A program made the position numbers and the translations under genes. Of a DNA stretch of 64,000 bases, positions 5,567 to 49,071 are shown in pieces. The notes beneath the pieces are model-generated. The model was not told the DNA's origin, ran no database searches, and was given only the letters and a program-made list of their open reading frames with translations. The stretch is from Pseudonocardia broussonetiae. GTDB lineage: Bacteria; Actinomycetota; Actinomycetes; Mycobacteriales; Pseudonocardiaceae. The stretch is taken from the NCBI RefSeq assembly GCF_013155125.1, contig NZ_CP053564.1, forward strand, positions 1,309,501 through 1,373,500, written 5' to 3'. Within the stretch, counting starts at the first letter, position 1. Each line of letters begins with the position of its first letter.

Positions 5567-5576
5567 TGGTGGTGGC

Positions 5577-6023: not shown

Positions 6024-6158
6024 CCGCGTCGTCGGGCGCAGTGCACTCACCGACAACACCTCGGCTCCCCGTGCCAAGCCTGCGACCCCGTCCGACCGCC
6101 AGTCTCGGAGCACGGCCCGCCACCGGCGCCGCCGTCCCCGACCGCGGGAGGAGCCTCC

Positions 6159-24248: not shown

Positions 24249-24593
24249 TCAGCCCGCGGCGTCGGTGGATGACCATCGCCTCCGGGCTCAGCTCGACGAA
24301 GTCGGCCTCGCCGAGCGCATCGACCACCGCGTCAAGGTTTGCCTCGAAGAGCGCCAGCAGTGCCACGTTCGTGATGTTGCCGGTCGCGACGACCCGGACA
24401 GCAGATGCCCGTCCCGAAAGTCGCGGTCCTTGGTGACCACGACACGATCCTCGCCGTCCGCCACCTCCGCGACGCGCACGTCAGTCGTGCGGTTGCCCTC
24501 CGGCATCTCGGACGTGTGTAGGACATCGTGCCCGGCGTCGTTCAGGAACCGGGCGAGCCGGACGGGCAGTTGAGCGTCGACCAGGAACTTCAC
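24249..24593 (-). pseudogene. DUF5615 PIN-like toxin, frameshifted
   Basis: The N-terminal 70 residues are a good DUF5615 PIN-like toxin: MKFLVDAQLPVRLARFLNDA, then RVVVTKDRDFRDGHLLSG. The frame then shifts near 24390; the next frame restores VATGNITNVALLALFEANLD and EADFVELSPEAMVIHRR down to TGA at 24249. A one- or two-base loss in SGSPRR explains it. As read, the catalytic C-terminal acid region is lost. It follows its DUF433 antitoxin with an ATGA overlap. A sequencing error cannot be excluded. Confidence 0.75.
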
Positions 24594-24823
24594 GCCGCGC
24601 CGAGCGGAACCACCCGGCCGCCGCCCGCCGCGAGAGCACCGAACTCCAACGCGGCGAGCAGATCGTCACGCTCAAGGTCCGGGTAGTCCTCGAGCACCTC
24701 GTCGATCGTCATCCCCGACGACAACAGCTCCAGCAGGTTCTCCACCGGGTAGCGCAGCCCCCGCACCGTCGGCTGCCCGTGACAGACCGCAGGGTCAGAG
24801 GTGATGCGCTGCAGTCGCGACAT
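24590..24823 (-). CDS. DUF433 antitoxin
   Basis: 77 residues matching DUF433 (VapB-like): RITSDPAVCHGQPTVRGLRY, then LLELLSSGMTIDEVLEDYPD and LERDDLLAALEFGA. The family binds DNA and neutralises DUF5615 toxins. Its stop overlaps the toxin start. The antitoxin looks intact although the toxin is frameshifted, so it may be an orphan. A degraded second copy lies at 31190-31519. Confidence 0.85.
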   Translation of the reverse strand: MSRLQRITSDPAVCHGQPTVRGLRYPVENLLELLSSGMTIDEVLEDYPDLERDDLLAALEFGALAAGGGRVVPLGAA

Positions 24824-24915
24824 GGCTGAACGGTACCGCTCGCGATGACAGCGACGCCACCAAGAGACGGCGCGACGACTGTGGCCAGAGATCCACCAGC
24901 TCGACTCCGAAAAGA

Positions 24916-28902: not shown

Positions 28903-30288
28903 TCATGGGGTGGTGGTCAGCGGGACACCGGCGTCGGCGGCGTCGGTGAACATGTCGTCGACGACCACCACGGTCCGCCCGGCGCGAGCGAGCAGCGACG
29001 CGGCCGCGGTGGCGCGGTAGCCGCTGCCGCAGTGCACCCACACCGACCCGGCCGGGACCTCGTCGAGCCGGTCCGGCAGCTCGGGCAGCGGGACGTGCAC
29101 GGCCCCTCGCACGTGGGAGGCGTCCCATTCGGTGCCCAACCGCACGTCGAGCACCACCTCGGCCGGCGGCAGATCAGCGCTACGGCGGCCGTCGAGCTCA
29201 CCGGCGAGGTCAGCGAAACCGGCGCTGGGCAACTCGCCCAGCCGAGCCGGGTCGACGGCCAGCTCGTGAGGATCACCGGTAGCGGCGGCGACGAGCCGGT
29301 CCACACCGATCCGGACCAGCTCCCGCTGCGCCTGCGCCACCTGGTCCGGGGTGTCGCCGAGCAGCGTGATCGGGGCACCGTGCGGGGCCATCCAGCCCAG
29401 CCAGGTCGCCATCGGCCCGTCCAGCCCGAGACTCACCGTCCCGGCGAGGTGCGAGGCGAGGTAGGCCTTGCGCGAGCGCAGGTCGACGACCCACTCCCCG
29501 TCGGCCAGCCGGCGCTCCAGCTCGGCCGGGTCGGCCGTGGTCGGCGGGCGCAAGTCCACCGGGGCCGGGCCGGCGGTGTTGAGCGCACCCATGTGCGCGT
29601 AGTAGGCGGGGTAGGCACCCAACCCGGACAGGGTCTCCCGGACGAACTCGTCGCGGGCCAGCCGCAGCACCGGGTTGACCTCCCGCTCCCGCCCGATCGT
29701 GGAGTCGTCGCCTGACGCCGGGGTGGCGGTGCAGAAGCTGCCGAAACCGTGGGTCGGCCACACCTGCGCCCCGTCGGGCAGCGCGTCGGCCATCGACGCG
29801 GCCGAGGCGTGCTGCGCGCGGGCCAGCGCCTCCGCGTGCTCGTCGCCGAGCAGGTCCGTGCGCCCGGTGGTGCCGTACAGCAGCGACCCGCCGGTGAACA
29901 CCCCCTGCGGCCCGTCCGGGCCCTCCAGCACGTAGGACAGGTGATGGAAGGTGTGCCCCGGCGTGCCCAACACCCGCAACCGCAACCGCGGCGAGGCCTC
30001 CAGCACGTCCCCGTCGACGACACCGGTCCGGTCGAACCCCAGGTCGTCCTCGGCCGACAGCACGTAGGCCGCTCCGGTGAGGCGCGCGAGCTCCAGACCA
30101 CCGGAGACGTAGTCGTTGTGCACGTGGGTCTCCACGACATGGGTGATCCGCACCCCGAGCCGCCCGGCCAGGGCCAGGACCCGGTCCACGTCGCGCTGCG
30201 GGTCGACCACCACCGCGACCTCACCGTCGGTGGCCAGATAGCTGCGGTCACCCAGTGAGGATGTCTCGATCACTTCGACGTCGATCAC
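28903..30288 (-). CDS. Metallo-beta-lactamase/rhodanese fusion (persulfide dioxygenase-like)
   Basis: 461 residues. An N-terminal metallohydrolase domain has the metal motif ETHVHNDYVSGG, typical of ETHE1/CstB-type enzymes, and VLGTPGHTFHHLSYVLEG. Two rhodanese-like domains follow: one without the Cys (ADGEWVVDLRSRKAYLASHL) and one with the active Cys in VWVHCGSGYRATAAASLL. It would oxidise persulfides to sulfite or thiosulfate. Lies below the CstR-type operator and upstream of the exporter gene. Confidence 0.9.
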   Translation of the reverse strand: MIDVEVIETSSLGDRSYLATDGEVAVVVDPQRDVDRVLALAGRLGVRITHVVETHVHNDYVSGGLELARLTGAAYVLSAEDDLGFDRTGVVDGDVLEASPRLRLRVLGTPGHTFHHLSYVLEGPDGPQGVFTGGSLLYGTTGRTDLLGDEHAEALARAQHASAASMADALPDGAQVWPTHGFGSFCTATPASGDDSTIGREREVNPVLRLARDEFVRETLSGLGAYPAYYAHMGALNTAGPAPVDLRPPTTADPAELERRLADGEWVVDLRSRKAYLASHLAGTVSLGLDGPMATWLGWMAPHGAPITLLGDTPDQVAQAQRELVRIGVDRLVAAATGDPHELAVDPARLGELPSAGFADLAGELDGRRSADLPPAEVVLDVRLGTEWDASHVRGAVHVPLPELPDRLDEVPAGSVWVHCGSGYRATAAASLLARAGRTVVVVDDMFTDAADAGVPLTTTP

Positions 30289-30326
30289 GACAGATCTCCT
30301 TCGTCTCGTCGGTTCTGCCCGGTCAC

Positions 30327-30641
30327 TTACCGGGCGCCGGTGTCCACCGGGCGCCCGGAGCTGATCCAGCCGGCGGTCCCGCCGGCCACCGACACCGGTC
30401 GCGCCCCGGCCGCGGTCAGCGCCTCGGCCGCCTTGGCGCTGCGGCCACCGGACTGACAGATCACGTACAGCTCCTGCCCGGCGTAGCGGCCCGGGTCGGT
30501 GATCACCCGCTCCAGCGGCACGTTCACCGCGCCGGGCACGTGACCGGCCGCGAACTCCTCGGCCGAGCGCACATCCACCACCGCCATGCTCGGGCGGCGC
30601 TCCACCGCGAACTGCTCCACATCAACCTCGCGCATCAGCAC
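30327..30641 (-). CDS. Single-domain rhodanese
   Basis: 104 residues, one rhodanese domain: PSMAVVDVRSAEEFAAGHVP, then LYVICQSGGRSAKAAEAL with the catalytic Cys. A sulfur-transfer partner for the metallohydrolase 38 bases downstream. First structural gene after the 30663-30682 operator. Confidence 0.9.
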   Translation of the reverse strand: MLMREVDVEQFAVERRPSMAVVDVRSAEEFAAGHVPGAVNVPLERVITDPGRYAGQELYVICQSGGRSAKAAEALTAAGARPVSVAGGTAGWISSGRPVDTGAR

Positions 30642-30662
30642 GACGCATCACCTCCTCATCAG

Positions 30663-30682
30663 GGATACCCGGGGGGGTATCC
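30663..30682. promoter_or_regulatory. CsoR/CstR-type operator 1
   Basis: A 20-base dyad with 8-base arms: GGATACCC-GGGG-GGGTATCC. CsoR-family repressors recognise ATACCC...GGGTAT palindromes with a G-tract centre. It lies 21 bases upstream of the first rhodanese gene, where it would block the operon promoter. Confidence 0.75.
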
Positions 30683-30749
30683 GTCAAACACAGCTCTGCC
30701 ATCGGGCACAGCCTCAGAACCAAACCGGGGTGAGACCCGGAGACGCTGA

Positions 30750-31519
<770 letters not shown>

Positions 31520-31581
31520 GAGACCGAGGGTACCGCCCGCCACGACCTACACCCGCCCGTTGCGTGCCCCGGCGGTCACGG

Positions 31582-32768
31582 TCAACGGAAGAGGGCGTCG
31601 AGGGTCTGCGCCGCTGCGGAGTCGGTCAGCGGCATCGCGTGGCTGTAGATCCGCAAGGTCGTGGCGGCGTCGCGATGCCCGAGACGATGTTGAGCCTGCA
31701 GGATGTCACCCTGCCCGACCAGCACCGTGGCCACGGTGTGGCGGAGCCGGTGCAGTGTGACGTCCGGGTGACCGGCTCGTTGGGCGAGCGCGGCGAACCA
31801 GTGGCCGGCGCAGCTGGTCGTCAGCCGGGTGGTGTGGTCGAGTCGCCGGGAAACAGCCACGGCCCGAACCGGCCCCCGTCCGGGTCGTCGTGCTGGTTGA
31901 GTTCGGCCCACCCGCGCCAGGTGGCGACACTCGACCTCCACAACCGCGCGGTGGTCGCGCCGAGGGTGAGCCGACGGTTCCGCCCGCTCTTCGTCGGCCC
32001 GACCATCTCGTTCGAGGTTCCGCGGCTGATCGTCAGGACGTCGCCGTCCAGGTCGTCGAGCTGCAGGCAGCCAGTTCGCCGCGCCTGGCGCCGGTGTCGG
32101 CGGCCAGCCGCGCCAGGAGCAGGATCTGCTCGCCGCGATGGATCCGCACAGTGGCCGGTCGCGGCGGGTCGGCGACGTGCGTTGTCGGCCTCGCTGGCAG
32201 CGACCTGCAGGATCCGGCAGACCGCGTCGACCGGTGCGTGTAGCCGGTTCGACGCTGTGGACGGCCCGCGCATACCCCGCAGCGGCGGCGCGTCCAGGAT
32301 GCCCTCCCGATACGCCCAGCCCAACGCCGAGCGCAGGCACCGGACCCGGGAGGCCGCTGTCGCCGGACCGACTCCGGCAGCAGCCCAGCCGTGCACCGCC
32401 GCGCGCAGGACCGAGGGAGTGACCTGCGAGGCCCGCCGCGTCCCGAGGGGATCCCGGCGCAGCGCTCGAACTATCGACGTGTACCCGACCACGGTCGCCG
32501 GGCGCCAGTCGTGCGCGGCCGCCAGCCATCGATCGAGCAGGTCGGCTACCGCGACTCCCGGGGCGGCCCGTCGGCCGGCGCGGACCACATCGGCCTGGGC
32601 GGCCCACCGCGCGAGCGCGGCTTGCGCGTCGTCGCGGTCTCCGTGCACGGTGATCGACCGCACCAGGCTCCGACCGGAGACCGCATCCGGGCCGAGTGCA
32701 ACGCGCAGTTCCCACACGCCGGGCTTGCGCTGGCGCAACGATCCGGCGCCACGGCTTCTGTTCGTCAT
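31582..32768 (-). pseudogene. Tyrosine site-specific integrase with three frameshifts
   Basis: The N-terminal part (32768 to about 32190) is an actinobacterial phage-type integrase: GAGSLRQRKPGVWELRVALG, a core-binding domain with WRPATVVGYTSIVRALRRDP. The catalytic domain is split: the first Arg box (ADTGARRGELAA) is in a second frame (about 32180-32075), the middle returns to the first frame (LQLDDLDGDVLTISRG), and the C-terminal box (HRLRHTVATVLVGQG, LGHRDAATTLRIYSH with the Tyr) is in a third frame from about 31835. It starts 145 bases from att copy 3, as expected for the integrase of that element. As read it cannot be made. Confidence 0.8.
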
Positions 32769-32913
32769 GCCGGACGATAGCCACGGATCCGCTGAGTCGA
32801 TAGTCCCGCTGAGCAGCGCGGTGTTGGGACTGTTGTAGGGATGAGCCCGCCGTCGGTCCGGCGATCTTCCATGATCGTCCGCGAATTGCCGCAGGTCAGC
32901 GGGGGTGGAGCTA

Positions 32914-32958
32914 TGGTGCGCCCGAAGGGATTCGAACCCCTAACCTTCTGATCCGTAG
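32914..32958 (-). repeat. att copy 3: 3' fragment of tRNA-Arg(ACG)
   Basis: About 45 bases identical to copy 2 from CCA through the anticodon loop; the match ends at GATCCGTAG, where the flank becomes unrelated. The covarying terminator hairpin is not obvious here; only GCAGGTCAGC remains nearby. It divides the sulfur/integrase segment from the ubiquitin-like module. Confidence 0.83.
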
Positions 32959-33033
32959 CGCGCGGACGAGGTTTCCCGTGAACAAGGCGGTACGACTGGT
33001 AGCCGAACGCGCTTGAGAGGTGCTGGTGCTCAG

Positions 33034-33066
33034 CAGTTCGTGGATCAGTTCGTGGATCAAGATCAA
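33034..33066. repeat. Arm-type repeat next to att copy 3
   Basis: CAGTTCGTGGATCAG followed by TTCGTGGATCAAGATCAA, the same double motif as at 25092 with two or three changes. It lies about 75 bases past the tRNA fragment and 32 bases before the ImmA stop. Confidence 0.55.
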
Positions 33067-33098: not shown

Positions 33099-33656
33099 CT
33101 ACACGGATCGACGCTCCGCCTGCCGAGCGACGCCTGTCGTGTTGTAGCGGAAGCGGGCCATCTCGAGTGTGACGCCGCAATCCGCGGCGATCTCGACGGG
33201 TCCGTCTCCCCGACGGGCGGCCAGCATCAGAAGTGGGCGAGGAAGCAGGAGCGTCCCACCGAACGCAGTGGCCTGTTCCTCTTCGTCGGGGAGGCAGGTC
33301 CGGAAGGGGACGCCGTCGATCTCACGGACCTCGGCGAGCTCGTGGTTGAGGATGGTGTGAGCGAACTCGTGCGCGACGTCGCTGGCGAGCCGGCCTGGTG
33401 AGCGTAGTGGGTTGGTCACCACGAAGGTCCGGCCCTGGATTATGAAGGTCGCGGCGGAGAACGCGAACGCCTGCAGGCGCTCGATCTCCTCCAGGCGGTC
33501 ACGGTCGACGAGTTCGTCACCGCTGACCAGCGTGACGCCGAGGTGCTCGGCGAGCCGATCGAGCGGCAGCGCCGCGGCTGCGCCGAGTCCCAGCTCACCG
33601 CGGAGACGTTCGGCCTCGCGCTCGGCCTTGGCCTTAAAACCCCGCGGCAGGGTCAC
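33099..33656 (-). CDS. ImmA/IrrE-family metallopeptidase
   Basis: 185 residues of the COG2856 zinc-protease family. The active site is HEFAHTILNHE with a downstream Glu in EEEQATAFGGTLLLP. Such proteases cleave a partner repressor upon stress or infection. Coupled to the XRE gene upstream by an ATGA overlap, and divergent from the ubiquitin-like operon. It probably provides the switch that turns the operon on. Confidence 0.88.
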   Translation of the reverse strand: MTLPRGFKAKAEREAERLRGELGLGAAAALPLDRLAEHLGVTLVSGDELVDRDRLEEIERLQAFAFSAATFIIQGRTFVVTNPLRSPGRLASDVAHEFAHTILNHELAEVREIDGVPFRTCLPDEEEQATAFGGTLLLPRPLLMLAARRGDGPVEIAADCGVTLEMARFRYNTTGVARQAERRSV

Positions 33657-34174
33657 CGCGCACCTTCCTTCGCGACCCGCGCGACGAGCGCGGCGTTCAT
33701 ATCGTCGAGCAGCGAACCAAGCCGCTGCGGCACCCCGGGCCGCATCACCGACGCCGCGCGCAGGTGGCAGGCGACAACCGGCTTCGCGAGTGGGTTGGCC
33801 TTAGCGAGGGTCGCGTACATCTCCTTGAGCACACTGCTGATCGCCGCGGAGGCCTCGGTCGTCAGCGCCGGGTCCGCGGAGATGTGGGCAATCGCTTGCT
33901 CCAGCGGCTGCTGCGGTCGCTCGGTGACCGGCGAGAAGAACCTGCTCGGCGGCATCCCCAACCAGGCACACAACGCGGTGAACGATGCCAGGTCGGGTTG
34001 GGCGCCGCCCTCGACGCGCGACATCGTGCTGAAGCTGACCCCGGCGTCGGCCGCGGCCTGCCGCAGCGACTGCGCTCCCCGTCGTTCCCGGACGAGACGA
34101 CCGAGCTGGGAGACGTCGAGGCGCTCAACATCGCCTCCGCGCGGCTCCCGGCCGTCGTCGACTGCGGGGGTCAT
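33653..34174 (-). CDS. XRE-family HTH regulator, ImmA partner
   Basis: 173 residues. The HTH spans residues about 18-75: LGRLVRERRGAQSLRQAAAD, GVSFSTMSRVEGGAQPDL. A helical C-terminal half follows (LEQAIAHISADPALTTEAS). The ATG at 34172-34174 is preferred over the 34282 opening because the extra 36 residues lie over the operator repeats. It overlaps the ImmA start. It probably represses the divergent ubiquitin-like operon until cleaved by ImmA. Confidence 0.82.
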   Translation of the reverse strand: MTPAVDDGREPRGGDVERLDVSQLGRLVRERRGAQSLRQAAADAGVSFSTMSRVEGGAQPDLASFTALCAWLGMPPSRFFSPVTERPQQPLEQAIAHISADPALTTEASAAISSVLKEMYATLAKANPLAKPVVACHLRAASVMRPGVPQRLGSLLDDMNAALVARVAKEGAR

Positions 34175-34222
34175 CGTGCGTTTCCCGGCTCGGACACGCC
34201 GCGAGAGTAACCGCTCGTCGCA

Positions 34223-34283
34223 GCTTTGCTGCAACACGGCGTGTCGTAACAGCCTCTTGCTGGTGACGCTTTGCTGCAACACG
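34223..34283. promoter_or_regulatory. Two direct 16-base repeats in the Ubl/XRE divergent promoter
   Basis: GCTTTGCTGCAACACG occurs perfectly at 34223-34238 and 34268-34283, 45 bases apart, midway between the two divergent starts. They are AT-richer than the surroundings and are the obvious candidate binding sites for the XRE repressor. Confidence 0.65.
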
Positions 34284-34335
34284 TACCGTTCCTTGAGCCG
34301 CTCCCCGGCAACCCGAGGTAGGAAAGGAACGTGCC

Positions 34336-34587
34336 ATGACCGACACGAGCAACCTCAAGCGCCACCAGGTGCACTTCACCCTCGACGGGCGCAAGCTCGT
34401 CGCCGACACCGATCGGATGGCCGCCGCGGCGATCCTCCGGCTCGGTGGTCTCAACCCCGCCGGCTACGACCTCAAGCAGGTTCGACCCGGACACCGCGAC
34501 CCGATCGACTACGCCGACACCGACGAGGTCGCGATCTCCAACGGCGACAAGTTCGTCAGCGTCCGCCAGACGGCCACGGTCGCGTGA
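34336..34587 (+). CDS. Single-domain ubiquitin-like protein (multiubiquitin family)
   Basis: 83 residues with one beta-grasp domain of the 'multiubiquitin' family: RHQVHFTLDGRKLVADTDRM, AAAILRLGGLNPAGYDLKQV, then DTDEVAISNGDKFVSVRQ. Family members usually carry two or more tandem copies; here there is one. The C-terminus is RQTATVA with no Gly-Gly, so conjugation as in classical ubiquitin is not evident from sequence. ATG at 34336. The stop shares one base with the next start (TGATG). First gene of a three-gene operon. Confidence 0.85.
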   Translation: MTDTSNLKRHQVHFTLDGRKLVADTDRMAAAAILRLGGLNPAGYDLKQVRPGHRDPIDYADTDEVAISNGDKFVSVRQTATVA

Positions 34588-34958
34588 TGGACACCGCCTC
34601 GACCGTGCCGGACACGGTGATCGTCGACTTCCTCGCCGGTCTTCAACGATGCGGCATCGCCGCCGTCGTGCAGGGCGTGGTCGTCGTCTTCACGGTCGAG
34701 GCGGTGACCGGCGCCCGCGCTGGGCGCCCGACCCCGACCGGTGTCCACGTCGACGAGCTGTCGATGTGGCCGCAGTTCCCGCCGCACTGGGTTCACTTCC
34801 CCGCGGACGTCGGGTTCTCTACGACCAACGCGAACGCCGAGGACACCTTGCCCGGTTGGGTTCGCCACTCCCGGCAGATCAACGGTTGGGGAGACGCTGC
34901 CGAGCCGGCCCAGGCATGGATCGCGCACATCCGCTCTGTTCTCGAGACGGCGAGCTGA
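34587..34958 (+). CDS. E2-like protein (Prok-E2_E-type candidate)
   Basis: 123 residues. Pattern: FPPHWVHFPADVGFSTTNAN, then GWVRHSRQINGWGDAAEPAQ. The PP-x-x-HFP turn and a late W-x-H-SR helix match what I remember of the prokaryotic E2 family E found beside multiubiquitin genes. The only Cys is Cys22, well before the position of an E2 catalytic cysteine, so thioester chemistry is uncertain. Starts one base into the Ubl stop. Assignment rests on pattern and context. Confidence 0.62.
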   Translation: MDTASTVPDTVIVDFLAGLQRCGIAAVVQGVVVVFTVEAVTGARAGRPTPTGVHVDELSMWPQFPPHWVHFPADVGFSTTNANAEDTLPGWVRHSRQINGWGDAAEPAQAWIAHIRSVLETAS

Positions 34959-34960
34959 CC

Positions 34961-36406
34961 ATGACCACTCTGAGCGCCCCGAGCCAGGCCATCCCAGGGT
35001 CGACGACCTCCGCGCAGATCGTCTCGGTCGCGATGACCGAGGCGAGCGACGCGGTGCTGCGCGAGCACCTTCTGCGGGCAGACGGGCAGGAAGACCTGTG
35101 CCTGGCCACCTACGCCCCGTCGACCGGCAGTCGGCGTTGGACCGCGCTGCTGCGCGAGTTCGTCGAGCCCAAGCCCGGCGAGCGCACCGTGCACCGCAAC
35201 GTCTCGTTCACCGGCGCCTACGTCCTGCGCGCGGCGACGCAGGCCGCCGCCGCCGGGCTCGGCGTCGCCATCCTGCATTCCCACCCCCGCGGGCGCGGAT
35301 GGCAGAACATGAGCCCCGGGGATGCCGACGCCGAGCAGTCCTACGCCCACCTGTGCGAGGAGATCACCGGCCTGCCGCTGCTCGGCATGACCCTCGCCGG
35401 CGTCGACCAGGCGTGGTCCGCGCGCACCTGGACTAGCACTGGAACGCCGGTCTGGGCCGAGAGCGTTCGCGTCGACGGCGGGCAGCTGCGCGTGAGCTGG
35501 AACGACGGCCTGCGCCCGCCGCCACAGGGCCAGGACACCCAGCAGCGCACCATCTCCGCGTGGGGTCCCGGCATCCAGGCCGACCTCGCGCGGCTGCGCA
35601 TCCTCGTCGTCGGGGTCGGCAGCGTCGGGCTCGACGTCGCCGTCCGGCTCGCCGCCGCCGGAGTGCAGCACCTCGCCGTCATGGACCCCGACCTCGTCGA
35701 GCGTCGCAACCTTGACCGGCTCATCGGCGCCACTCGCCGCGACGCGGCCAATTGTCGGCCGAAGGTCGACGTCGCGGTCCGGCTCGTGCGCGCCGCGGCG
35801 ACAGCCGAACACACCGACACCGTTGGCTACAGGATGAGCATCTGTGACCCGTCTGCGCACACGATCGCGCTGGACTACGACGTCATCTTCAGCTGCGTCG
35901 ACCGTCCCTGGCCGCGCGCGGTCCTCAACTCCCTCGCCTATACCGACCTCATCCCCGTCCTCGACGGTGGTATCGGCATCGACGCGTTCGACGACGGCAC
36001 CGGCATGCGCAACGCGACCGTGCGCACCCACGTCCTGCGGCCCGGGCGGCCGTGCATGGTCTGCAACAAGCAACTCGACCCCGCCCTAGTCCAGATCGAC
36101 CGCCAAGGCCTGCTCGCCGACCCCCGCTACATCGCCGCCGCCGACCGCGGCATCCAGGTTGGCACCGAGAACGTCGCCCTGCTCTCCCCGAACGTCAGCA
36201 CCGGGCTGCTCAACCAGTTCGTCAGTCTGACCGCCGCGCCCGGCGGCGAGACCGAACCTGGCCCGCTGCGCTTCAGCCTCTCCACCCACGCGCTAGAACA
36301 CCTGCCGTATTGCTCGTCGCCCAGCTGCTACGTCGAGCGGACAGTTGCGGCCGGCGACGCGCGACCGCAGCTGACCGAGACACCGGGTCGGAGGCGGTCC
36401 GCCTGA
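34961..36406 (+). CDS. JAB deubiquitinase-E1/ThiF fusion
   Basis: 481 residues. N-terminal JAMM domain (about 20-165): Glu44, H106-S-H108-P and S118-x2-D121 form the zinc-protease signature (HSHPRGRGWQNMSPGD). C-terminal E1/ThiF domain (about 205-460): ATP motif GVGSVG at 218-223, MDPDLVERRNLDR with Arg249/Asn250/Arg253, Lys268, and SCVDR with Asp314. Zinc cysteines are Cys365/Cys368 (CMVC) and Cys451/Cys456. It would adenylate the Ubl C-terminus and may also trim or deconjugate it. The start is two bases after the E2-like stop. Confidence 0.88.
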   Translation: MTTLSAPSQAIPGSTTSAQIVSVAMTEASDAVLREHLLRADGQEDLCLATYAPSTGSRRWTALLREFVEPKPGERTVHRNVSFTGAYVLRAATQAAAAGLGVAILHSHPRGRGWQNMSPGDADAEQSYAHLCEEITGLPLLGMTLAGVDQAWSARTWTSTGTPVWAESVRVDGGQLRVSWNDGLRPPPQGQDTQQRTISAWGPGIQADLARLRILVVGVGSVGLDVAVRLAAAGVQHLAVMDPDLVERRNLDRLIGATRRDAANCRPKVDVAVRLVRAAATAEHTDTVGYRMSICDPSAHTIALDYDVIFSCVDRPWPRAVLNSLAYTDLIPVLDGGIGIDAFDDGTGMRNATVRTHVLRPGRPCMVCNKQLDPALVQIDRQGLLADPRYIAAADRGIQVGTENVALLSPNVSTGLLNQFVSLTAAPGGETEPGPLRFSLSTHALEHLPYCSSPSCYVERTVAAGDARPQLTETPGRRRSA

Positions 36407-36506
36407 CCGGTGCTGGCGCATGCCCTTTCGCTTCTCCGGCTCCAGCGACGACGTCGCAGCCGCAAATCAGACCGTGGATCGTGATCGACATCGAAGGCCC
36501 GGAAAC

Positions 36507-36547
36507 GATCTCGGTCCTGACCGTTGGTGCTGGTCAGAGCCGAGATC
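36507..36547. terminator. Hairpin before tRNA fragment copy 4
   Basis: A 16-base-pair stem with two mismatches (36507-36522 with 36532-36547) and loop GTTGGTGCT, one base different from copies 1 and 2. The outer six pairs (GATCTC/GAGATC) are unlike the other copies yet pair. Lies 101 bases after the JAB-E1 stop, so it may also end that operon. Confidence 0.7.
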
Positions 36548-36551
36548 CTGT

Positions 36552-36599
36552 GCGTGCACCCGAAGGGATCCGAACCCCTAGCCTTCTGATTCGTAGTTC
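36552..36599 (-). repeat. att copy 4: diverged 3' fragment of tRNA-Arg(ACG)
   Basis: Matches the other copies over the T-arm and anticodon loop but has several changes: CCA is replaced by CGC, the T-loop reads TTCGGATCC and the anticodon side is GAACTACGAATC. It is the most diverged copy, so either the oldest or from another host. It separates the ubiquitin-like module from the large conjugative element. Confidence 0.75.
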
Positions 36600-37924: not shown

Positions 37925-38482
37925 CTACGGCAGCAACTCCATTGTGTATCCCCATGCGACTACGCTGTCTGTGTGCGGCAAACGCATATCAGTCGCTAGG
38001 AGCGCCTCATACAGTTGCTCTGCCGCCTCCGTATCGATGTCGTCCAGGCGCTTGTAGGCCTCGATGATGATGTGCATGGTGGTCTCGAAGCGCAGCCCCC
38101 GGACACGCGCTTGCACTCTGGCGTCGCTGTCATCAATGACCGCGGTCATACCACGCTCCATTGCGCACGCCAGAACCGCACACTCACCGAGATTCTTCGT
38201 CGGAGGATCACCCGGCTTTGACGGCATATCAACTTTGATCAGCAGCTGCAGCGTTTGCTCGTTGTCAGTAAGGATGCCGCGCTTCACCCAAGGGAGGCTG
38301 TCGATGTCAGGGACGTCGTAACCGAGATCCCGGCCAACCCTAATCTCCGCATCGACGCTGTCGGGGATGAGGATCAGGCCCTGCGGGGCGAGCCGCTGCA
38401 GCACATCCTCGCGTTTCGCACGGCAGAAGTGGGTGAAGGTGGACGTGTCCATCACCCAGGGAGCGTCGTCGACAGCCGTCAC
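37925..38482 (-). CDS. PIN-like putative ribonuclease toxin
   Basis: 185 residues with a PIN-domain layout: WVMDTSTFTHFCRAKREDVL (first Asp), LILIPDSVDAEI, GECAVLACAMERGMTAVIDD (Glu plus the Asp pair) and a C-terminal helix. PIN proteins in such pairs cleave tRNA or mRNA. Its start overlaps the stop of the HTH-ImmA gene (ATGA), forming a likely toxin-antitoxin or stress-response pair. A start ten codons later (MDTSTF) is possible. Confidence 0.72.
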   Translation of the reverse strand: MTAVDDAPWVMDTSTFTHFCRAKREDVLQRLAPQGLILIPDSVDAEIRVGRDLGYDVPDIDSLPWVKRGILTDNEQTLQLLIKVDMPSKPGDPPTKNLGECAVLACAMERGMTAVIDDSDARVQARVRGLRFETTMHIIIEAYKRLDDIDTEAAEQLYEALLATDMRLPHTDSVVAWGYTMELLP

Positions 38483-39561
38483 AGGCTCGCATAGTCCGCG
38501 GCGGACTCCACCCGGCGCTCGGGAAGATCATGCGCTTCGAGACCGCCGCGAAGTACTTCCACTACCCGCGCCGCGGACATCCGCCGATCCACGTACGCAC
38601 CGATTATCGCTGCCGTGATTCCCGGTGATAGCGACGGCGCCTTCAACTCCTCGGCGTCCAACGTGATACCCAACTTGGCGAACTCCCCGAAGACGGGTGT
38701 GCGGCCATTCAGCGAGCGGAAATCATCGTCGGTGATCAGGCCGAGGTTCCGCAGGTGGAGAATAATTGCCGACCACGACATCCGGAACGCCGCGGAGACC
38801 CGTATCGTTCGGTCGCGTATCGAGTCGCCAAGATGCTGGTTCCAGAGTGCGGTGACTCCCGGCCGAGGAGCCAACAGGTACGCGGCGAAGGAGTTGATCC
38901 TCCTCTCTGCGTCATCAGCACTGAGATCATAGGGGTCACCGAACAGCCAGTGCCCAAGCTCGTGCGCCAGCGACATGCGCCGCCGCCCTGGCCGAGCATC
39001 CCCGTCGATTACCGCAGCCGCAACACCCTCAGCTACCTCGACGAGGGCGCCGTCAGCGCCGCCGTTGCCCAGCGCTAGGGAACACGAGTAGAGGCCAAAC
39101 CGCTCTGCGATAGCCGCTAAACCGAGCAGCGGCCCGTTATCTACCCCTAGATGGGACCGCACCTCGTGTGCGGTCCGCTCGGCCTCGGAGTGCGTGCTCG
39201 GAGTCCGCCAAGAAGGCTTGTCCATAATCGGAATAATCACATCGGAAGCGAGCAGCGACGCAACGTCACCAGAGAATAGCTCCAGTTGACGGTCCATTCG
39301 AGCAGTCACGTCGTGAGCGGGCGCGGCGTCGGTGCGCCGACTAACCACGGCTGGAAGCGGATCACGTACGAACCAGGCCAAGGGGACGTCGAGCGCCGCG
39401 GCGATGTTGACCAGCTCCACGGCGGACACCTTGCGTCTGCCTGTCTCGATCCGCCCCAGGGCGGTGCGTTCAAGACCGACACGGTTGGCGAGGTGTTCCT
39501 GGGTGACGTCGAGGTCGCCGCGAGCTTGGGAGATTCGCTCACCAAGTACCTTCCCGTCCAT
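38479..39561 (-). CDS. HTH-ImmA/IrrE fusion protein (antitoxin-like)
   Basis: 360 residues. N-terminal XRE HTH at about 5-65 (LGERISQARGDLDVTQEHLA, VGLERTALGRIETGRRKVS), then an ImmA/IrrE metallopeptidase domain with HELGHWLFGDP near residue 220 and a downstream AERRINSFAAYLLAP. The ATG at 39559-39561 starts directly at the HTH. Coupled to the PIN-like gene downstream. Fusions of this kind act as antitoxin-repressors or stress switches. Confidence 0.85.
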   Translation of the reverse strand: MDGKVLGERISQARGDLDVTQEHLANRVGLERTALGRIETGRRKVSAVELVNIAAALDVPLAWFVRDPLPAVVSRRTDAAPAHDVTARMDRQLELFSGDVASLLASDVIIPIMDKPSWRTPSTHSEAERTAHEVRSHLGVDNGPLLGLAAIAERFGLYSCSLALGNGGADGALVEVAEGVAAAVIDGDARPGRRRMSLAHELGHWLFGDPYDLSADDAERRINSFAAYLLAPRPGVTALWNQHLGDSIRDRTIRVSAAFRMSWSAIILHLRNLGLITDDDFRSLNGRTPVFGEFAKLGITLDAEELKAPSLSPGITAAIIGAYVDRRMSAARVVEVLRGGLEAHDLPERRVESAADYASL

Positions 39562-39757
39562 ATGTGGGATTTTCACACATGTTGTGGCTGGTGTCGATGC
39601 GGGGGCTGGACGCCTCGGTTGAGCCGATCCTCCGGTGCTGGTGACATCACCAGAGCGGCACAGCGGATGGAGCGGTGACACAGTCTCCGTCTGCCTGCAC
39701 GGCGGACTGACCGGGACGTCGGCAGGCGGTCTCCAGACCCGAACGCTTCAGACGCTG

Positions 39758-42095: not shown

Positions 42096-43613
42096 GTGAT
42101 CACCGGCGAGCTCAAGAGCAAGATCGACCGCGTCTGGGACGCCTTCTGGTCGGGTGGGATCTCCAATCCGCTCGAGGTCATCGAGCAGATCACGTATCTC
42201 ATGTTCATTCGCCGGCTGGACGAGATCCAGAAACGCAAGGAACGTCAGGCCAACCGGACCGGCAAGCCAATCGACAAGCCGATCTACGTTCAGAAGACCG
42301 AGACACTGCGCTGGTCGTGGTTCGCCAACCGGTCCCCGGACGAGATGCTGATCATTGTCCGAGATGACGTCTTCCCCTGGCTGCGCGAGCTCGGCGGCGA
42401 GGGCTCCACCTACTCGCAACACATGAAGGACGCCCGCTTCTCGATCACGACGTCTAATCTGCTCGCCAAGGTCGTCGCCATGCTCGACGAGATGCCCGAG
42501 ACCGAGCAGGACACCAAGGGCGACCTGTACGAGTACATGCTCGGCAAGATCGCGACGGCCGGCCAGAACGGCCAGTTCCGCACCCCGCGCCACATCATCC
42601 AGTTGATCGTCGAGATGATGGCGCCCGGACCAGCCGACGAGATTTGTGACCCCGCGTGCGGCACCGCTGGATTCCTCGTCGCTTCAGCCGAGTACGTAAA
42701 TCGGACGCATCGCGAGGCACTGCTGGCGCCCACTCAGCGCGAGCATTTCAACGCGAGCATGTTCCACGGCTTCGACTTCGACAGCACCATGCTTCGCATC
42801 GGCAGCATGAACATGCTCCAGCACGGAGTCGAGAATCCAGACATCCGCTACCGCGACTCCCTCGCAGAGAGCACCGCCGGCGAGGTCGAGAAGTACTCGA
42901 TGATCCTCGCCAACCCGCCGTTCGCCGGGAGCCTGGACTACGAGGTCACCGCGAAGGACCTCCAGGTGGTGGTCAAGACGAAGAAGACTGAGTTGCTGTT
43001 CCTCGCCCTGTTCCTGCGGCTCCTCAAGCTCGGCGGCCGGGCTGCGGTCATCGTCCCGGACGGCGTGCTGTTCGGCTCCAGCAAGGCCCACAAGGAGCTG
43101 CGGCGCATCCTGGTCGAGGAGCACAAGCTCGATGCCGTGGTGAAGCTGCCCAGCGGAGTGTTCAAGCCCTACGCCGGGGTATCGACGGCGATTCTGATCT
43201 TCACCAAGACCACGGTCGGCGGCACGGACAACGTCTGGTTCTACGAAATCACGGCCGACGGGTGGAGCCTGGACGACAAGCGCGCGCCGCTGCTGCCCGG
43301 AGACAAGCTCGGACCCATCCCAGCCGAGGCGCTCGACGATGCCGAGCATGCCACGAACAACCTGCCCGACGCGCTGGCTCGCTGGAATCGGCGCAACGGC
43401 GCCGAGCAGAAGCGGGCACGGACCGAGCAAAGCTTCTGTGTCCCGAAGGCGGACATTGTCGCGCACGGCTACGACCTCAGCCTCAATCGGTACAAGGAGA
43501 TCGTGCATGAGCAGGTCAAGCATCGGGCGCCGGGCGAGATTCTGGACGAGTTGGCGCGGATCGAAACGGAAATTCAGCAGGGGATGTCGGAGCTGAAGGC
43601 GATGCTCGGGTGA
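42096..43613 (+). CDS. hsdM: Type I restriction-modification DNA methyltransferase, HsdM
   Basis: 505 residues. The N-terminal helical domain (KIDRVWDAFWSGGISNPLEV, EQITYLMFIRRLDE) is followed by the N6-adenine methylase: SAM motif DPACGTAGFLVAS at about 186, catalytic ANPPFAGSLDYE at about 272, and the C-terminal helix pair that holds the specificity subunit. Start at GTG 42096. It overlaps hsdS by GTGA. Modifies adenine in the recognition sequence and forms the M2S core of the complex. Confidence 0.93.
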   Translation: MITGELKSKIDRVWDAFWSGGISNPLEVIEQITYLMFIRRLDEIQKRKERQANRTGKPIDKPIYVQKTETLRWSWFANRSPDEMLIIVRDDVFPWLRELGGEGSTYSQHMKDARFSITTSNLLAKVVAMLDEMPETEQDTKGDLYEYMLGKIATAGQNGQFRTPRHIIQLIVEMMAPGPADEICDPACGTAGFLVASAEYVNRTHREALLAPTQREHFNASMFHGFDFDSTMLRIGSMNMLQHGVENPDIRYRDSLAESTAGEVEKYSMILANPPFAGSLDYEVTAKDLQVVVKTKKTELLFLALFLRLLKLGGRAAVIVPDGVLFGSSKAHKELRRILVEEHKLDAVVKLPSGVFKPYAGVSTAILIFTKTTVGGTDNVWFYEITADGWSLDDKRAPLLPGDKLGPIPAEALDDAEHATNNLPDALARWNRRNGAEQKRARTEQSFCVPKADIVAHGYDLSLNRYKEIVHEQVKHRAPGEILDELARIETEIQQGMSELKAMLG

Positions 43614-44848
43614 ACAATTCGACCGGCTGCGGCTGGGACATCGTCACAGTCGGCGACATCGCCGACGTTCAAGGTGGAATTCAGAAGCAGCCAATACGGC
43701 GACCCGTCAAGAACAGATATCCATTCTTGCGCGTAGGCAACGTTGGACGTGGCAACCTCCACCTTCAAGAGATCCACGAGGTGGAGCTTTTCGACGGAGA
43801 ACTCGCAAAGCTGAGGCTTCAGTCAGGGGACTTATTGGTAGTTGAAGGAAATGGAAGCCCCGATGAGGTCGGGCGAGCCGCTATGTGGCGCAACAAGATC
43901 GAGAACTGCGTATACCAGAACCACCTTATCCGAGTGCGACCGAGGGGCCGTATCGTTCCAGAATTCCTTGAATTCCTCTGGAACAGTGAAGCCACAGTCA
44001 GTCAACTGCGCCAGATTGCCACCACTACAAGCGGACTACACACTCTCAGCGCAAGCAAGATCAGAGCAATCAAGCTCGCGATTCCCTCGCTTGATCAGCA
44101 GCGCAACATTGTAGCGGTTCTGAACAGCATGCAGCTTCTCCGGACTCAACGCCGCAAGGCTATATCCCTCCTCAATGACCTCGCCAACTCGATTTTTCTT
44201 GACATGTTCGGTGATCCCGCGACCAACCCATACGACTGGCCAACCCGCAATCTAGGCAGTTTAGCTATCGTATTCTCGGACGGCCCATACGGATCGAATC
44301 TTAAGAGTTCTCACTACGTCGAGTCCGGCATCCGCGTTGTACGACTGCAGAATATTGGCGTGGGCACATTCGTGGACAACGATCGAGCCTTTATAACACC
44401 GGAGCATTTCAGCTTGCTCAAGAAGCACACCTGCCTGCCTGACGATATCCTGGTTGCCACCCTCGGGGACCCGAATATCAGAGCCTGCATCCAACCGCAA
44501 TCGATCCCAGTCGCATTGAATAAGGCGGACTGTGTCCAGATTCGCGTCAACCCCGAGTTGGCCTCCGCAACGTTTCTTTGCGCACTGTTGAACCAATCGA
44601 GCATTAAGGCGATGGCACAGCCTCTGATGCTCGGACAGACTCGTATCAGGATCAGTATGGGCAGACTGCGCACACTCGAGGTGCCCGTCCCGCCTCGCGA
44701 TCTCCAGAGACAATTCTCGGCTCGAATTGAAGCGCTCAGTACGTTGTCCGTGCCACATCACCTCCACGTCGCCGAACTCGACGCCCTCTTCGCCTCCGTC
44801 CGATACCGCGCGTTCCGCGGCGAACTATGGGACACCTCCGCAGCCTGA
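43610..44848 (+). CDS. hsdS: Type I restriction-modification specificity subunit, HsdS
   Basis: 412 residues with two target-recognition domains: one at about 8-165, one at about 215-380. The conserved spacer between them is LDQQRNIVAVLNSMQLLRTQ ending LDMFGDPA; a second repeat sits at the C-terminus. GC is visibly lower and codon choice more mixed than in hsdM and hsdR, as is usual for swapped recognition domains. Starts at GTG 43610, overlapping the hsdM stop. The sequence it recognises cannot be predicted here. Confidence 0.9.
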   Translation: MNNSTGCGWDIVTVGDIADVQGGIQKQPIRRPVKNRYPFLRVGNVGRGNLHLQEIHEVELFDGELAKLRLQSGDLLVVEGNGSPDEVGRAAMWRNKIENCVYQNHLIRVRPRGRIVPEFLEFLWNSEATVSQLRQIATTTSGLHTLSASKIRAIKLAIPSLDQQRNIVAVLNSMQLLRTQRRKAISLLNDLANSIFLDMFGDPATNPYDWPTRNLGSLAIVFSDGPYGSNLKSSHYVESGIRVVRLQNIGVGTFVDNDRAFITPEHFSLLKKHTCLPDDILVATLGDPNIRACIQPQSIPVALNKADCVQIRVNPELASATFLCALLNQSSIKAMAQPLMLGQTRIRISMGRLRTLEVPVPPRDLQRQFSARIEALSTLSVPHHLHVAELDALFASVRYRAFRGELWDTSAA

Positions 44849-44885
44849 GTCTCGACATCGTCCACCTCCAGGAAGGGCCACGTCC

Positions 44886-47800
44886 GTGAGCAACTTCGGC
44901 TTCCTCAAGGCCGAGTGGCCCAACCTGCACGCCGAGGCGCTGCACGCCGAGCGCCTCGCCGTGGCGGACCCGCGGGCGTCGTGCTTCTACGCCCGCCGCA
45001 CCCTGGAGCTCACGCTCACCTGGCTCTTTGAGGCCGACAGCGCGCTTCGCCGCCCCTACCGCGACGACCTGGCGGCGATGATCGCCGAGCCGACGCTGGT
45101 GAAGCTGTCCGGTCCTGCAATTCGCACGAAGATGGACGTCATCCGCCGGCAGGGCAACACAGCCGTGCATCGCAGCGGCTCGGTGGCGTCCAACGACGCG
45201 GTCCGTGTGGTCGCCGAGCTGTTCCACGTCATGTACTGGGTCGCCCGCCTGTACTCACGCAACCCCGACGACCTGCCCGCCCCCGGGCTGGCGTTCGACC
45301 AGTCCGTCATACCTCGCCCGCTGCCTGCCGAGGTGCGGCTGGCCAAGCAGGCCGAGCTCAAGGCACAAGCGGAGAAGTTCGCGCAGCAGGACGCCGAGCT
45401 GGCCAGGCAGCGCCGCAAGAACGAGGACCTCGACGCCGAGCTGGCGGCCCTACGCGCGGAGATCAAGGCGGCGAAGGCCGCGAACGAGTCGCAGCCGGAC
45501 ACGCACGACTACAACGAGGCTCAGACCCGATCGCTGATCATCGACCTGCTCCTCAGAGAGGCAGGCTGGGCGCTCGACCAGCCCCAGGACCGCGAGTACC
45601 CGGTCACCGGGATGCCTGTATCCGCCGCGCCGTCCGGCAAAGGCAAAGTCGACTACGTCCTCTGGGACGACGACGGGCGCCCACTCGGGCTCGTCGAGGC
45701 CAAGCGCACCACCCGCGACGCACAGTCGGGCAAGTACCAGGCCCAGCTCTACGCCAACCGCCTGGAAGAGCGGTTCGGGCAGCGTCCGATCATCTTCTAC
45801 ACCAACGGATACACGACGTTCATCTGGGACAACCTCAACTACCCGCCGCGCGAGATCCAGGGCTTCTACACCAGGGACGAGCTGCGACTGCTAATCCAGC
45901 GCCGCGCCAGCAGACTGACGATCGCGACACTCCCGATCAACGAGCAGATCGCCGGACGCAGCTACCAGTCCCATGCGATCCGCCGTGTCGCCGAGACGTT
46001 CGAGAACGACGCACAGCGTGATGCCCTGCTCGTCATGGCAACCGGTTCGGGCAAGACCCGTACCGTCATCGCATTGACCGACCTCATGATGCGGGCAAAC
46101 TGGGCCAAGCGCATCCTCTTCCTCGCCGACCGCAAAGCTCTGGTGCGCCAGGCCGTAGGTGCGTTCAAGGCGCACTTACCCGGGACGCCCGTGGTCAACC
46201 TTGTCGAGGACAAGGACCTCAGCGCACGCGTGTTCGTCTCGACCTACCCAACCTTGATGAACATGATCAACGACATCGACGGCGGCGGGCTGCGTCGCTT
46301 CGGGCCAGGATATTTCGATCTGATCGTCATCGATGAGGCGCACCGCTCGATTTACCAGAAGTACGGCGCGATCTTCGACTACTTCGACGCGTTGCTCGTC
46401 GGGCTCACCGCCACGCCCAAGGACGAGATCGACCGCAACACCTACCGCCGTTTCCACCTCGAGGACGGTGTCCCCACCGACGTCTACAGCCTCGACGAGG
46501 CCGTCGAGGACGGTTACCTCGTCGCACCTCGTGTCGTGGACGTCCCGCTGAAGTTCCAACGCGGAGGCATCAAGTACGACGACCTGTCCGAGGAGGACAA
46601 GCAGCGCTGGGAAGAGCTGGAATGGGACGACGACGGCAGCGTCCCGACCGAGATCTCCTCCGACGAGCTGAACAAGTACCTGTTCAACGCCGACACCGTC
46701 GACAAGGCGCTGGCGACCCTGATGACGCATGGTCTGAAAGTCGCCGGCGGTGACCGGCTCGGCAAGACGATCATCTTCGCCGCGAACACCCATCACGCCG
46801 ACTTCATCGAGAAGCGCTTCGAAGCGAACTACCCCGAGCACAAGGGTTCGTTCGCGCAGGTCATCACCTACGCCAAGACGTATGCCGACAGCATGATCGA
46901 GGCGTTCGGCGTCCCGGATAAGGCGCCGCACATCGCCATCTCCGTTGACATGCTCGACACCGGCATCGACGTGCCGGCGGTCGTCAACCTGGTCTTCTTC
47001 AAGTTGGTGCGTTCCAAGAGCAAGTTCTGGCAGATGATCGGCCGCGGTACGCGGCTGGCTCCGGACCTGTTCGGCCCGAACCGCGACAAGACGGGATTCC
47101 TCGTCTTCGACCTCTGCCAGAACGTCGAATTCTTCAACCAGAACCTCATGCCCGCAGAGGGCAGCCTCGCCCCGTCGTTGGGCGAGCGACTGTTCGAGCG
47201 CCGCGCCGACCTACTCCTCGCGCTGGATGAGCAGCACGTCCCGGCCGCCGAGGACGGAGCCGACGGCACCACGAGCGACGGCGGACTGCGGCAGGACCTT
47301 GCGAGGCGCCTACACGACGAAGTGAGCGCTATGAACACGGAGAACTTCCTGGTCCGGCCGCACCGCGAGCAGATCGACAAGTTCGCCGACTTCGACGCCT
47401 GGCTCACGCTTACCCCCGAGGTTCACGCCGAGGTCGTTGATCACCTCGCCGGGCTCCCATCTGCCTTCCGCGAGGACGACAGCAGTGAGGAGGCCAAGCG
47501 CTTCGACCTGCTCGCGCTGCGCCTCCAGCTCGCCCAGATCAACGCAGAACCGGGATACGCACGGCTTCAGCAACAGGTCCAGGAGATTGCGTCGGCACTG
47601 CTCGATCAACTCACCATTCCGGCCGTCCGCGCTCAACAGGAATTGCTCGGCGAGATCGCCGGTGAGGACTGGTGGACCGACATCACGCTGCCGATGCTGG
47701 AGACGATGCGCCGGCGCATCCGCAGCCTAGTCAAGCTGATCGAGAAGACCAGGCGCGGCATCGTCTACACCGACTTCGAGGACGAGCTCGGCGAGCTGTC

Positions 47801-48308
47801 CGCAGCGTCGCTTCGCGGCATGGAGATCGGCGCCGACCTCACCCGTTTCGAACAGAAGCTGCGCATCTATCTGCGAACCCACGAGGACCAGCTCGCCGTT
47901 CAAAAGATCCGCCGCAATCGACAGATCACCACCACCGACCTAGACGAACTGGAAGGCATCTTTATCGAGTCCGGTATTGGCACGGACGCCGAGATAGCCG
48001 TGGCAAAGGAGGAGGCCGGCGGCCTCGGTTTGTTTCTCCGCTCACTTGTCGGGCTCGACCGGGCAGCGGCCGCCGAGGCATTCGGGTCATTTCAGCAGGG
48101 CAAGACCTTGAACTCGGCTCAGCTCCGATTCGTAAACGAGATCGTCGACTATCTGGCCCACAACGGCCGGATCGAGGTCGACATGCTCTACCAACCGCCC
48201 TTTACCTCCCTTGCTCCTGGAGGACCAGAGGACCTGTTCGTCGAGATCGACATCGACGCGATGACTGAGATGATGCACGCGGTCAACGCCACCGCGATTC
48301 CTGCGTAG
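44886..48308 (+). CDS. hsdR: Type I restriction endonuclease, HsdR
   Basis: 1140 residues. N-terminal DUF4145-like helical segment (EALHAERLAVADPRASCFYA), a coiled coil near 155-205, then the HsdR nuclease domain (GKVDYVLWDDDGRPLGLVEAKR, with the D...ExK site shown in part). Helicase motor: Walker A MATGSGKTRT at about 385, DEAH box VIDEAHRSIY at about 482, and motif VI QMIGRGTRLAPD. An EcoEI-type C-terminal domain ends it. Starts at GTG 44886 and shares an operon with hsdMS. Cuts unmodified DNA after ATP-driven translocation. Confidence 0.92.
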   Translation: MSNFGFLKAEWPNLHAEALHAERLAVADPRASCFYARRTLELTLTWLFEADSALRRPYRDDLAAMIAEPTLVKLSGPAIRTKMDVIRRQGNTAVHRSGSVASNDAVRVVAELFHVMYWVARLYSRNPDDLPAPGLAFDQSVIPRPLPAEVRLAKQAELKAQAEKFAQQDAELARQRRKNEDLDAELAALRAEIKAAKAANESQPDTHDYNEAQTRSLIIDLLLREAGWALDQPQDREYPVTGMPVSAAPSGKGKVDYVLWDDDGRPLGLVEAKRTTRDAQSGKYQAQLYANRLEERFGQRPIIFYTNGYTTFIWDNLNYPPREIQGFYTRDELRLLIQRRASRLTIATLPINEQIAGRSYQSHAIRRVAETFENDAQRDALLVMATGSGKTRTVIALTDLMMRANWAKRILFLADRKALVRQAVGAFKAHLPGTPVVNLVEDKDLSARVFVSTYPTLMNMINDIDGGGLRRFGPGYFDLIVIDEAHRSIYQKYGAIFDYFDALLVGLTATPKDEIDRNTYRRFHLEDGVPTDVYSLDEAVEDGYLVAPRVVDVPLKFQRGGIKYDDLSEEDKQRWEELEWDDDGSVPTEISSDELNKYLFNADTVDKALATLMTHGLKVAGGDRLGKTIIFAANTHHADFIEKRFEANYPEHKGSFAQVITYAKTYADSMIEAFGVPDKAPHIAISVDMLDTGIDVPAVVNLVFFKLVRSKSKFWQMIGRGTRLAPDLFGPNRDKTGFLVFDLCQNVEFFNQNLMPAEGSLAPSLGERLFERRADLLLALDEQHVPAAEDGADGTTSDGGLRQDLARRLHDEVSAMNTENFLVRPHREQIDKFADFDAWLTLTPEVHAEVVDHLAGLPSAFREDDSSEEAKRFDLLALRLQLAQINAEPGYARLQQQVQEIASALLDQLTIPAVRAQQELLGEIAGEDWWTDITLPMLETMRRRIRSLVKLIEKTRRGIVYTDFEDELGELSAASLRGMEIGADLTRFEQKLRIYLRTHEDQLAVQKIRRNRQITTTDLDELEGIFIESGIGTDAEIAVAKEEAGGLGLFLRSLVGLDRAAAAEAFGSFQQGKTLNSAQLRFVNEIVDYLAHNGRIEVDMLYQPPFTSLAPGGPEDLFVEIDIDAMTEMMHAVNATAIPA

Positions 48309-48626
48309 GACATCACACCGCACGCACTGATCCGTGGTACCCCACGCCTACTGCTCGGGTCGGGCCTCGCCGAGCAGCTCCCGCGCGGCACGCACCCTGC
48401 TGAGAAGCCAGCGGCGCCGGGCAGGAGTCCGGCAGGTCCTGGTGCCACCCCGTGGCGTCGAGCTGTGGCCGGCAGGAATGCGGTGTTGGTAGGGGGTGGC
48501 CCGCGGAGCCAGCGCGGAAGTCCTGCCCGCGTCGTCATGTACGCCGACGCTCGCCAGGTTCCCGGGTCGCGCCCAGTGACCCGCTCGGACGTCGAAATCG
48601 TCGGTATGTCGTGCAACTGTGAACGC
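48309..48626. other. Gene-free 318-base gap after hsdR
   Basis: I see no convincing coding sequence here, only weak open frames on both strands. It probably holds the hsdR terminator and the promoter of the following small gene. An upstream ATG (48606) in frame with the next gene is possible. Confidence 0.4.
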
Positions 48627-49049: not shown

Positions 49050-49071
49050 CCGCCAGGCGCACCGGCTCGGC

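Follow-up and report, generated by a model that had tools for sequence, protein, structure and literature searches.

The window analysed here, a 64,000-nucleotide stretch of Pseudonocardia broussonetiae contig NZ_CP053564.1 (positions 1,309,501 to 1,373,500), carries a compact five-gene cassette in which a predicted ubiquitin-like (Ubl) conjugation operon stands beside a divergent regulatory pair, the whole being enclosed by two att copies. The plus strand encodes a BubA-like Ubl of 83 residues, a single beta-grasp domain ending Val-Ala (34336..34587), a BubB-like E2-like protein of 123 residues, a relative of Prok-E2_E without a conserved cysteine (34587..34958), and a BubCD-like JAB-E1 fusion of 481 residues (34961..36406). 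These three proteins occupy about 2.1 kb and their genes are coupled, the Ubl and E2 genes overlapping in the TGATG at 34585-34589 and the E2 and JAB-E1 genes being separated by two bases. On the minus strand, a gene for an XRE-family HTH repressor (33653..34174), CapH-like by position only, with an ATG start and a possible alternative GTG start at 34282, overlaps by four bases a gene for a CapP-like, ImmA/IrrE-like (M78) metallopeptidase with an HEFAH motif (33099..33656). No further gene was seen between the end of JAB-E1 at 36406 and the core of the next att copy at 36552. The five genes, their positions and the coupling of the plus-strand genes had been proposed in a first-pass annotation of the sequence, and the reading frames and coordinates agree with it.

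The JAB-E1 fusion ties the operon most directly to a characterized system. Pfam detects ThiF (E 8.3e-26) and no JAB domain in the window protein; among 24 relatives, ThiF is found in 24 and Prok-JAB in one, and the JAB half is, judging from these matches, too divergent for Pfam. A profile of the 24 JAB-E1 sequences compared with PDB sequences retrieved Citrobacter BubCD (9ea4_A) with an E of 6.5e-34, the next, non-Bub, entry reaching 8.1e-13. The BubCD alignment spans positions 21-409 of the 507 of the profile and 10-396 of the 458 of the chain, so that homology to a solved BubCD runs through JAB and most of E1. Invariant in the 24 sequences are E44, H106, H108 and D121, which we take to be JAMM-type residues, as well as D242, N250, R253 and K268, presumably the adenylation residues, while the GxGxxG glycines are nearly invariant. 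Four cysteines (C312, C365, C368 and C456) occur in 26 or 27 of 27 near-complete JAB-E1 proteins; since C365 and C368 resemble the zinc CxxC pair known from ThiF/MoeB, and C312 appears to lie within a core motif, the E1 would have no evident catalytic cysteine. A ThiF/MoeB-like E1 that keeps this CxxC pair could also serve a sulfur-carrier or cofactor pathway of the ThiS/MoaD kind, with no protein tagging involved. We regard this as very improbable, as none of the five genes of the cassette encodes a rhodanese or a biosynthesis protein, the similarity to BubCD takes in the JAB domain, an E2-like partner is present and the Ubl tail is Val-Ala.

The sequence profiles of the other two proteins only gave weak matches to unrelated chains among PDB sequences (best E 0.36 for the Ubl and 1.2 for the E2-like protein), and fold and profile-profile comparisons were therefore needed. 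The top six matches of the Ubl model are solved bacterial multi-ubiquitin/BubA chains, and the E2 model has BubB first among its solved matches, tied with other E2/UEV folds. In hhalign comparisons, both proteins align with their counterparts from Bub operons carrying a DUF6527 gene (the DUF6527 class), with an E of 1.4e-8 for the Ubl and 8.3e-7 for the E2-like protein. Pfam bore out the expected families in part, recovering ThiF while leaving Multi_ubiq under its cut-off for the Ubl (E 0.0048) and giving no match for the E2-like protein or the JAB half. Based on profiles and predicted folds, the machinery is thus of a known kind, Bub, in three of three protein tests, and the beta-grasp Ubl, the E2 fold, the JAB-E1 fusion and the Bub kinship of the first-pass annotation are all supported.

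The same annotation did not know this single-Ubl, JAB-E1-fused form with an ImmA/XRE pair as a described mobile unit. The form itself is not new: operon type 6e (2006), Citrobacter BubCD and plasmid records already show it. In Iyer, Burroughs and Aravind 2006, type 6e places a JAB domain N-terminal to E1, accompanied by one to three repeats of the Ubl and by a cysteine-less E2/RWD-like protein, and also lists a C-x3-C-x35-38-H-x2-C protein, with sll6052 named as a zinc-finger example (PMC1779556); from its motif, this last protein is probably DUF6527. The window operon resembles type 6e in its JAB-E1 fusion, its Ubl and the cysteine-less E2-like protein between them, and differs in that no C-x3-C-x35-38-H-x2-C protein was found at it. 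HTH, ImmA, multiubiquitin, E2 and ThiF genes likewise occur together in plasmid records of Rhizobium, Synechocystis and Acidiphilium. With Citrobacter Bub (9ea4, 9ea5, 9ea8, 9eae, 9eav) the window operon shares the Ubl, E2, JAB-E1 order, the predicted folds, a Ser-Arg pair in the E2 and the JAB and adenylation residues; unlike the DUF6527 type of Bub, it has no DUF6527 gene, its Ubl ends Val-Ala at the stop codon and its JAB-E1 falls in a separate clade. The Bil system (BilABCD) also combines a bacterial Ubl, E1, E2 and JAB protein, but there JAB (BilC) and E1 (BilD) are separate proteins and BilA contains two Ubl domains and ends in a reactive glycine (PMC11354881), whereas JAB and E1 of the window form a single chain, for which BubCD is the best solved match.

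Relatives of the operon are rare. Searching with the protein (E up to 1e-40) gave a JAB-E1 match in four of 397 genomes from the order, and searching with a profile (E up to 1e-25) gave one in 10 of 396 genomes from the phylum, the own genome being counted in both. Ubl, E2 and JAB-E1 genes occur together in 26 of the 29 genome-contig loci fetched by JAB-E1, which is above chance; a profile search adds L030 to the complete sets, leaving L028 and L033, each with a partial gene only. A second copy in the own genome was sought, and only a remote ThiF match was found (29% identity, E 5.1e-5). Viral contigs and phage records held no JAB-E1 relative at the depth searched, and a phage-borne module was therefore dropped at that depth.

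To place the window operon among its relatives, operons from genome contigs (29 loci), plasmids (18 regions) and further genomes were scanned with profiles of both classes and of DUF6527. In 14 loci JAB-E1 is followed by a DUF6527 gene; none of the 45 rows of the window's class shows one there, two of these (L011 and L020) ending too near JAB-E1 to tell and some repeating one place. The searches that yielded the window-class rows started from the window's protein or its relatives, and DUF6527-class rows are mostly plasmids. The own genome has no DUF6527 gene. The DUF6527 protein reportedly also goes by the name BubE, with a role as a protease. Across whole genomes and records, the Pfam DUF6527 model matches five of five DUF6527-class plasmids, none of three window-class plasmids and three of 22 window-class genomes. 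In these three genomes, the match is more than 0.5 Mb away from the operon, provided that contig C1 and the contig of L009 are the same (G401), has a coordinate beyond the end of the operon's contig (G406) or is on a contig not linkable to that of L023 (G412), and profiles found no DUF6527 in the nearly 8 kb downstream of the operon in any of them.

In a JAB-E1 tree of 54 rows, built without nine partial, broken or repeated rows (L009, L020, L028, L033, L046, L047, L051, L055 and L060), all 14 DUF6527 operons fall on one side of one branch, and the DUF6527 label requires a single change (SH-aLRT 96; none of 500 shuffles as low). The window's clade comprises 35 rows, mostly actinobacterial, none with DUF6527 (SH-aLRT 99); it is a quick tree with long branches, in which the placement of L056-L059, L061 and L070 is unsure. 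L056, L057, L059 and L061, on the DUF6527 side, show no DUF6527 within 1.4-1.5 kb downstream, and the Ubl of L059 also lacks a final glycine; these traits alone consequently do not define the window's clade. The branch looks new, and the main Bub papers (Gong 2025; Ye 2026) may already note such a branch; DUF6527 is not mentioned in the open-licence literature searched. Separately, L070 (2854-4461), on a Halorussus plasmid, is an archaeal JAB-E1 relative preceded by two small uncharacterised genes that match neither the Ubl nor the E2 profiles.

Ubiquitin and its kin are typified by a C-terminal glycine and, mostly, by a cysteine relay. The window Ubl terminates in TATVA, whereas the solved Citrobacter BubA chains stop at a glycine before BubB (Gly229 in 9ea8_B). 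The alignment of BubA residues 155-229 with Ubl residues 11-83 has these numbers as its outermost positions, so that Ala83 falls at Gly229 or next to it. Among 38 distinct window-class loci (40 rows, from which L051 and L055 were removed as repeats of L027 and L046, with near-identical loci such as L015/L016 and L018/L019 scored separately), the Ubl ends Val-Ala in 34, Val-Ser in three, Val-Glu in one and with a glycine in none. A glycine motif (TTEG, QTEG, NG or PG) is kept in the Ubl of all 14 DUF6527 loci; most of these proteins carry extra residues or a fused E2 past the glycine, those of L037, L039 and L065 stopping at it. One operon of the window's class, L030 (1175-3519, from a Chitinophagaceae metagenome-assembled genome), is from the Bacteroidota and has a Ubl end of Val-Ser; L053 and L054 cluster with it and likewise end Val-Ser.

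Among the sequences compared, neither E1 nor E2 has an evident conserved cysteine of the catalytic type, position 87 of the E2-like protein being Cys in 14 of 22 sequences and Thr in the window. Identical in 22 of 22 are H70, S95, R96 and H114; five DUF6527-class E2 proteins all have the Ser-Arg pair as well, and hhalign aligns it between the two classes. Oxyester intermediates have reportedly been found for Bub (Ye et al. 2026), and Ser95 is, from its conservation, the likely candidate for an acyl carrier. The E2-like protein might instead be a non-catalytic UEV/RWD-like scaffold that holds the Ubl while E1 passes it from the adenylate straight to the target, and Iyer et al. 2006 did call these domains catalytically inactive E2s (PMC1779556). 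Since the conserved H70, S95, R96 and H114 and the Ser-Arg pair shared by both classes suggest an E2 active site, we consider such a scaffold unlikely.

The divergent XRE/ImmA pair proposed at the outset is confirmed by matches to HTH_31 (E 3e-7) and M78 (E 8.7e-12). The peptidase also matches the PADLOC models capP (E 2e-8) and RmrA (1.8e-8), while the XRE protein matches RmrA and HTH_VI and not capH, the presence of a capH model in PADLOC being unchecked. An M78 peptidase with an HExxH motif thus sits beside an HTH gene and adjoins an immune-type operon. For the Cap ("Controller of associated/adjacent pathways") modules, the published account places CapW or CapH with CapP at 219 of 544 Bub operons, has single-stranded DNA activating CapP, which cleaves CapH, and presents phage protection as not demonstrated for Bub operons (PMC13373217). 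The window resembles CapH and CapP in having HTH repressor and M78 peptidase genes beside the Ubl operon; it differs in that only the M78 protein is CapP-like by profile, and a response to single-stranded DNA is presumed by analogy.

Of 30 loci of the window's class that extend 2 kb or more upstream, the window among them, 25 have an M78/ImmA-like gene ahead of the Ubl gene. This count comes from phmmer runs whose six seeds included proteins of the window, L012 and L006, and is a lower bound because it missed the annotated ImmA genes of L043 and L062. The upstream layout varies, with HTH and M78 encoded by two genes, joined in one protein (L012) or represented by an M78 protein with a cysteine-rich end (L006); genes upstream in L041 and L042 are annotated as HigA/RelE pairs, and L014 resembles one. 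The 161-bp divergent region of the window carries an exact 16-bp direct repeat (34223..34238 and 34268..34283), a candidate operator, a length of 16 or more being reached by one of 5000 dinucleotide shuffles. In six regions from relatives it is weakly kept, with one place at 4 mismatches in L023 and likewise in L025 and none at up to 5 mismatches in L009, L026 and L032; the L031 region has only 27 bases. As regards other regulatory genes, L010 has a protein-kinase gene (5543-6616, minus strand) beside the HTH gene upstream of its operon, at the place of M78 in other loci. In the window itself, 37925-39681 (minus strand), at the left end of the next element, holds a second HTH and M78 (ImmA) fusion (38479-39681) overlapping a gene for a 185-residue protein that has no Pfam match at E 0.001 and looks like a PIN-type toxin by eye.

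The cassette belongs to an island built on a tRNA gene. Four copies of a 68-nt repeat (24058, 24935, 32891 and 36529), 76-94% identical to the reference copy, correspond to the 3' half of tRNA-Arg(ACG). ARAGORN detects no tRNA in the window, and the whole tRNA-Arg gene starts at G000:C1:1375094, about 1.6 kb beyond its right end. The repeats at 32891 and 36529 flank the five genes, and the att-bounded segment of the first-pass annotation is therefore real. At its left border, the core of att copy 3 (32914..32958) is an exact 45-base match to the tRNA half, and just inside lies an arm-type repeat, TTCGTGGATCAG-NN-CGTGGATC (33030..33066), 92% identical to a repeat inside att copy 2. The pattern occurs twice in the window against 0.01 expected, with a similar motif beside the tRNA gene, and would bind an integrase. 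At the right border, an arm-type repeat with a hairpin (36466..36540), 82.9% identical across 76 nt to sequence flanking the tRNA-Arg gene (E 1e-15), precedes the core of att copy 4 (36552..36596), the most diverged copy (76% identical), which is absent from the tRNA-half matches with up to 3 mismatches. Sequence to the left of att copy 4 thus resembles the tRNA gene flank, and sequence to the right of att copy 3 is 90% identical across 42 nt to that right of att copy 2; the left flank of att copy 3 matches none. Consequently, the 3.6-kb segment is bordered on either side by element-type ends.

Its description as a mobile unit holds for these ends and fails for the integrase, as no Phage_integrase match lies between att copies 3 and 4. 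The nearest are at 31636-31860 of the window (a C-terminal part) and, outside it, at C1:1373759-1374307. The former belongs to an integrase left of att copy 3 (31582-32784, minus strand) that is split over two frames and matches in its C-terminal part only; beside the tRNA lies an open frame of 443 codons that also has an integrase match. The segment is most simply read as a non-autonomous cassette within a layered island; a deletion that removed its own integrase is just as possible. The lack of an integrase, the split neighbouring one and the existence of broken or partial relatives (L009, L033 and G052) could also suit an inert, decayed passenger of the island. We judge this improbable, since all five frames are open, the Ubl, E2 and JAB-E1 proteins retain the residues conserved in relatives and the absence of DUF6527 is clade-wide, not local. 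Among the 29 genome-contig loci, five contain any tRNA.

Other parts of the island have their own cargo. The element between att copy 4 and tRNA-Arg encodes, at 43610-53478, type I restriction proteins resembling HsdS and HsdR as well as a TrwC relaxase. A neighbouring att-bounded segment carries a metallo-beta-lactamase/rhodanese fusion, a rhodanese and a metal-sensitive repressor (28903-31256, minus strand), a set that looks like sulfide/persulfide detoxification. Two duplicated stretches (24273-24824 and 31197-31520), about 6.7-6.9 kb apart, are 81-87% identical; a DUF433 frame (31097-31543) that overlaps the right one may be one partner of a toxin-antitoxin pair.

Taken together, the locus is likely a Bub-type operon of a distinct, mainly actinobacterial branch, carried as an integrase-less att cassette in a tRNA-Arg island and working as follows. 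The CapH-like XRE repressor would silence the divergent promoter, perhaps through the two 16-bp repeats, until a stress such as single-stranded DNA activates the CapP-like M78 peptidase; cleavage of the repressor would then allow expression of the Ubl-E2-JAB-E1 operon. The E1 domain would adenylate the Ubl at its native C-terminal alanine, no trimming being needed, the acyl group would reach targets via the E2, with Ser95 as best candidate carrier instead of a cysteine relay, and the JAB domain would take the tag off. We infer both conjugation to targets and any role in defence. A bolder view, that the branch is a separate Ubl-conjugation lineage free of both DUF6527 and the glycine rule, with a Val-Ala tail, a cysteine-free relay, JAB as sole eraser and a cassette moved by the integrases of others, is conceivable, with the odds leaning somewhat against it. 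The clade-wide alanine tail, paired with the absence of DUF6527, offers a natural comparison for the effect of DUF6527 on the tag and a gauge of the tolerance of E1 chemistry for another last residue, and a three-protein system of this small size could be rebuilt in vitro.

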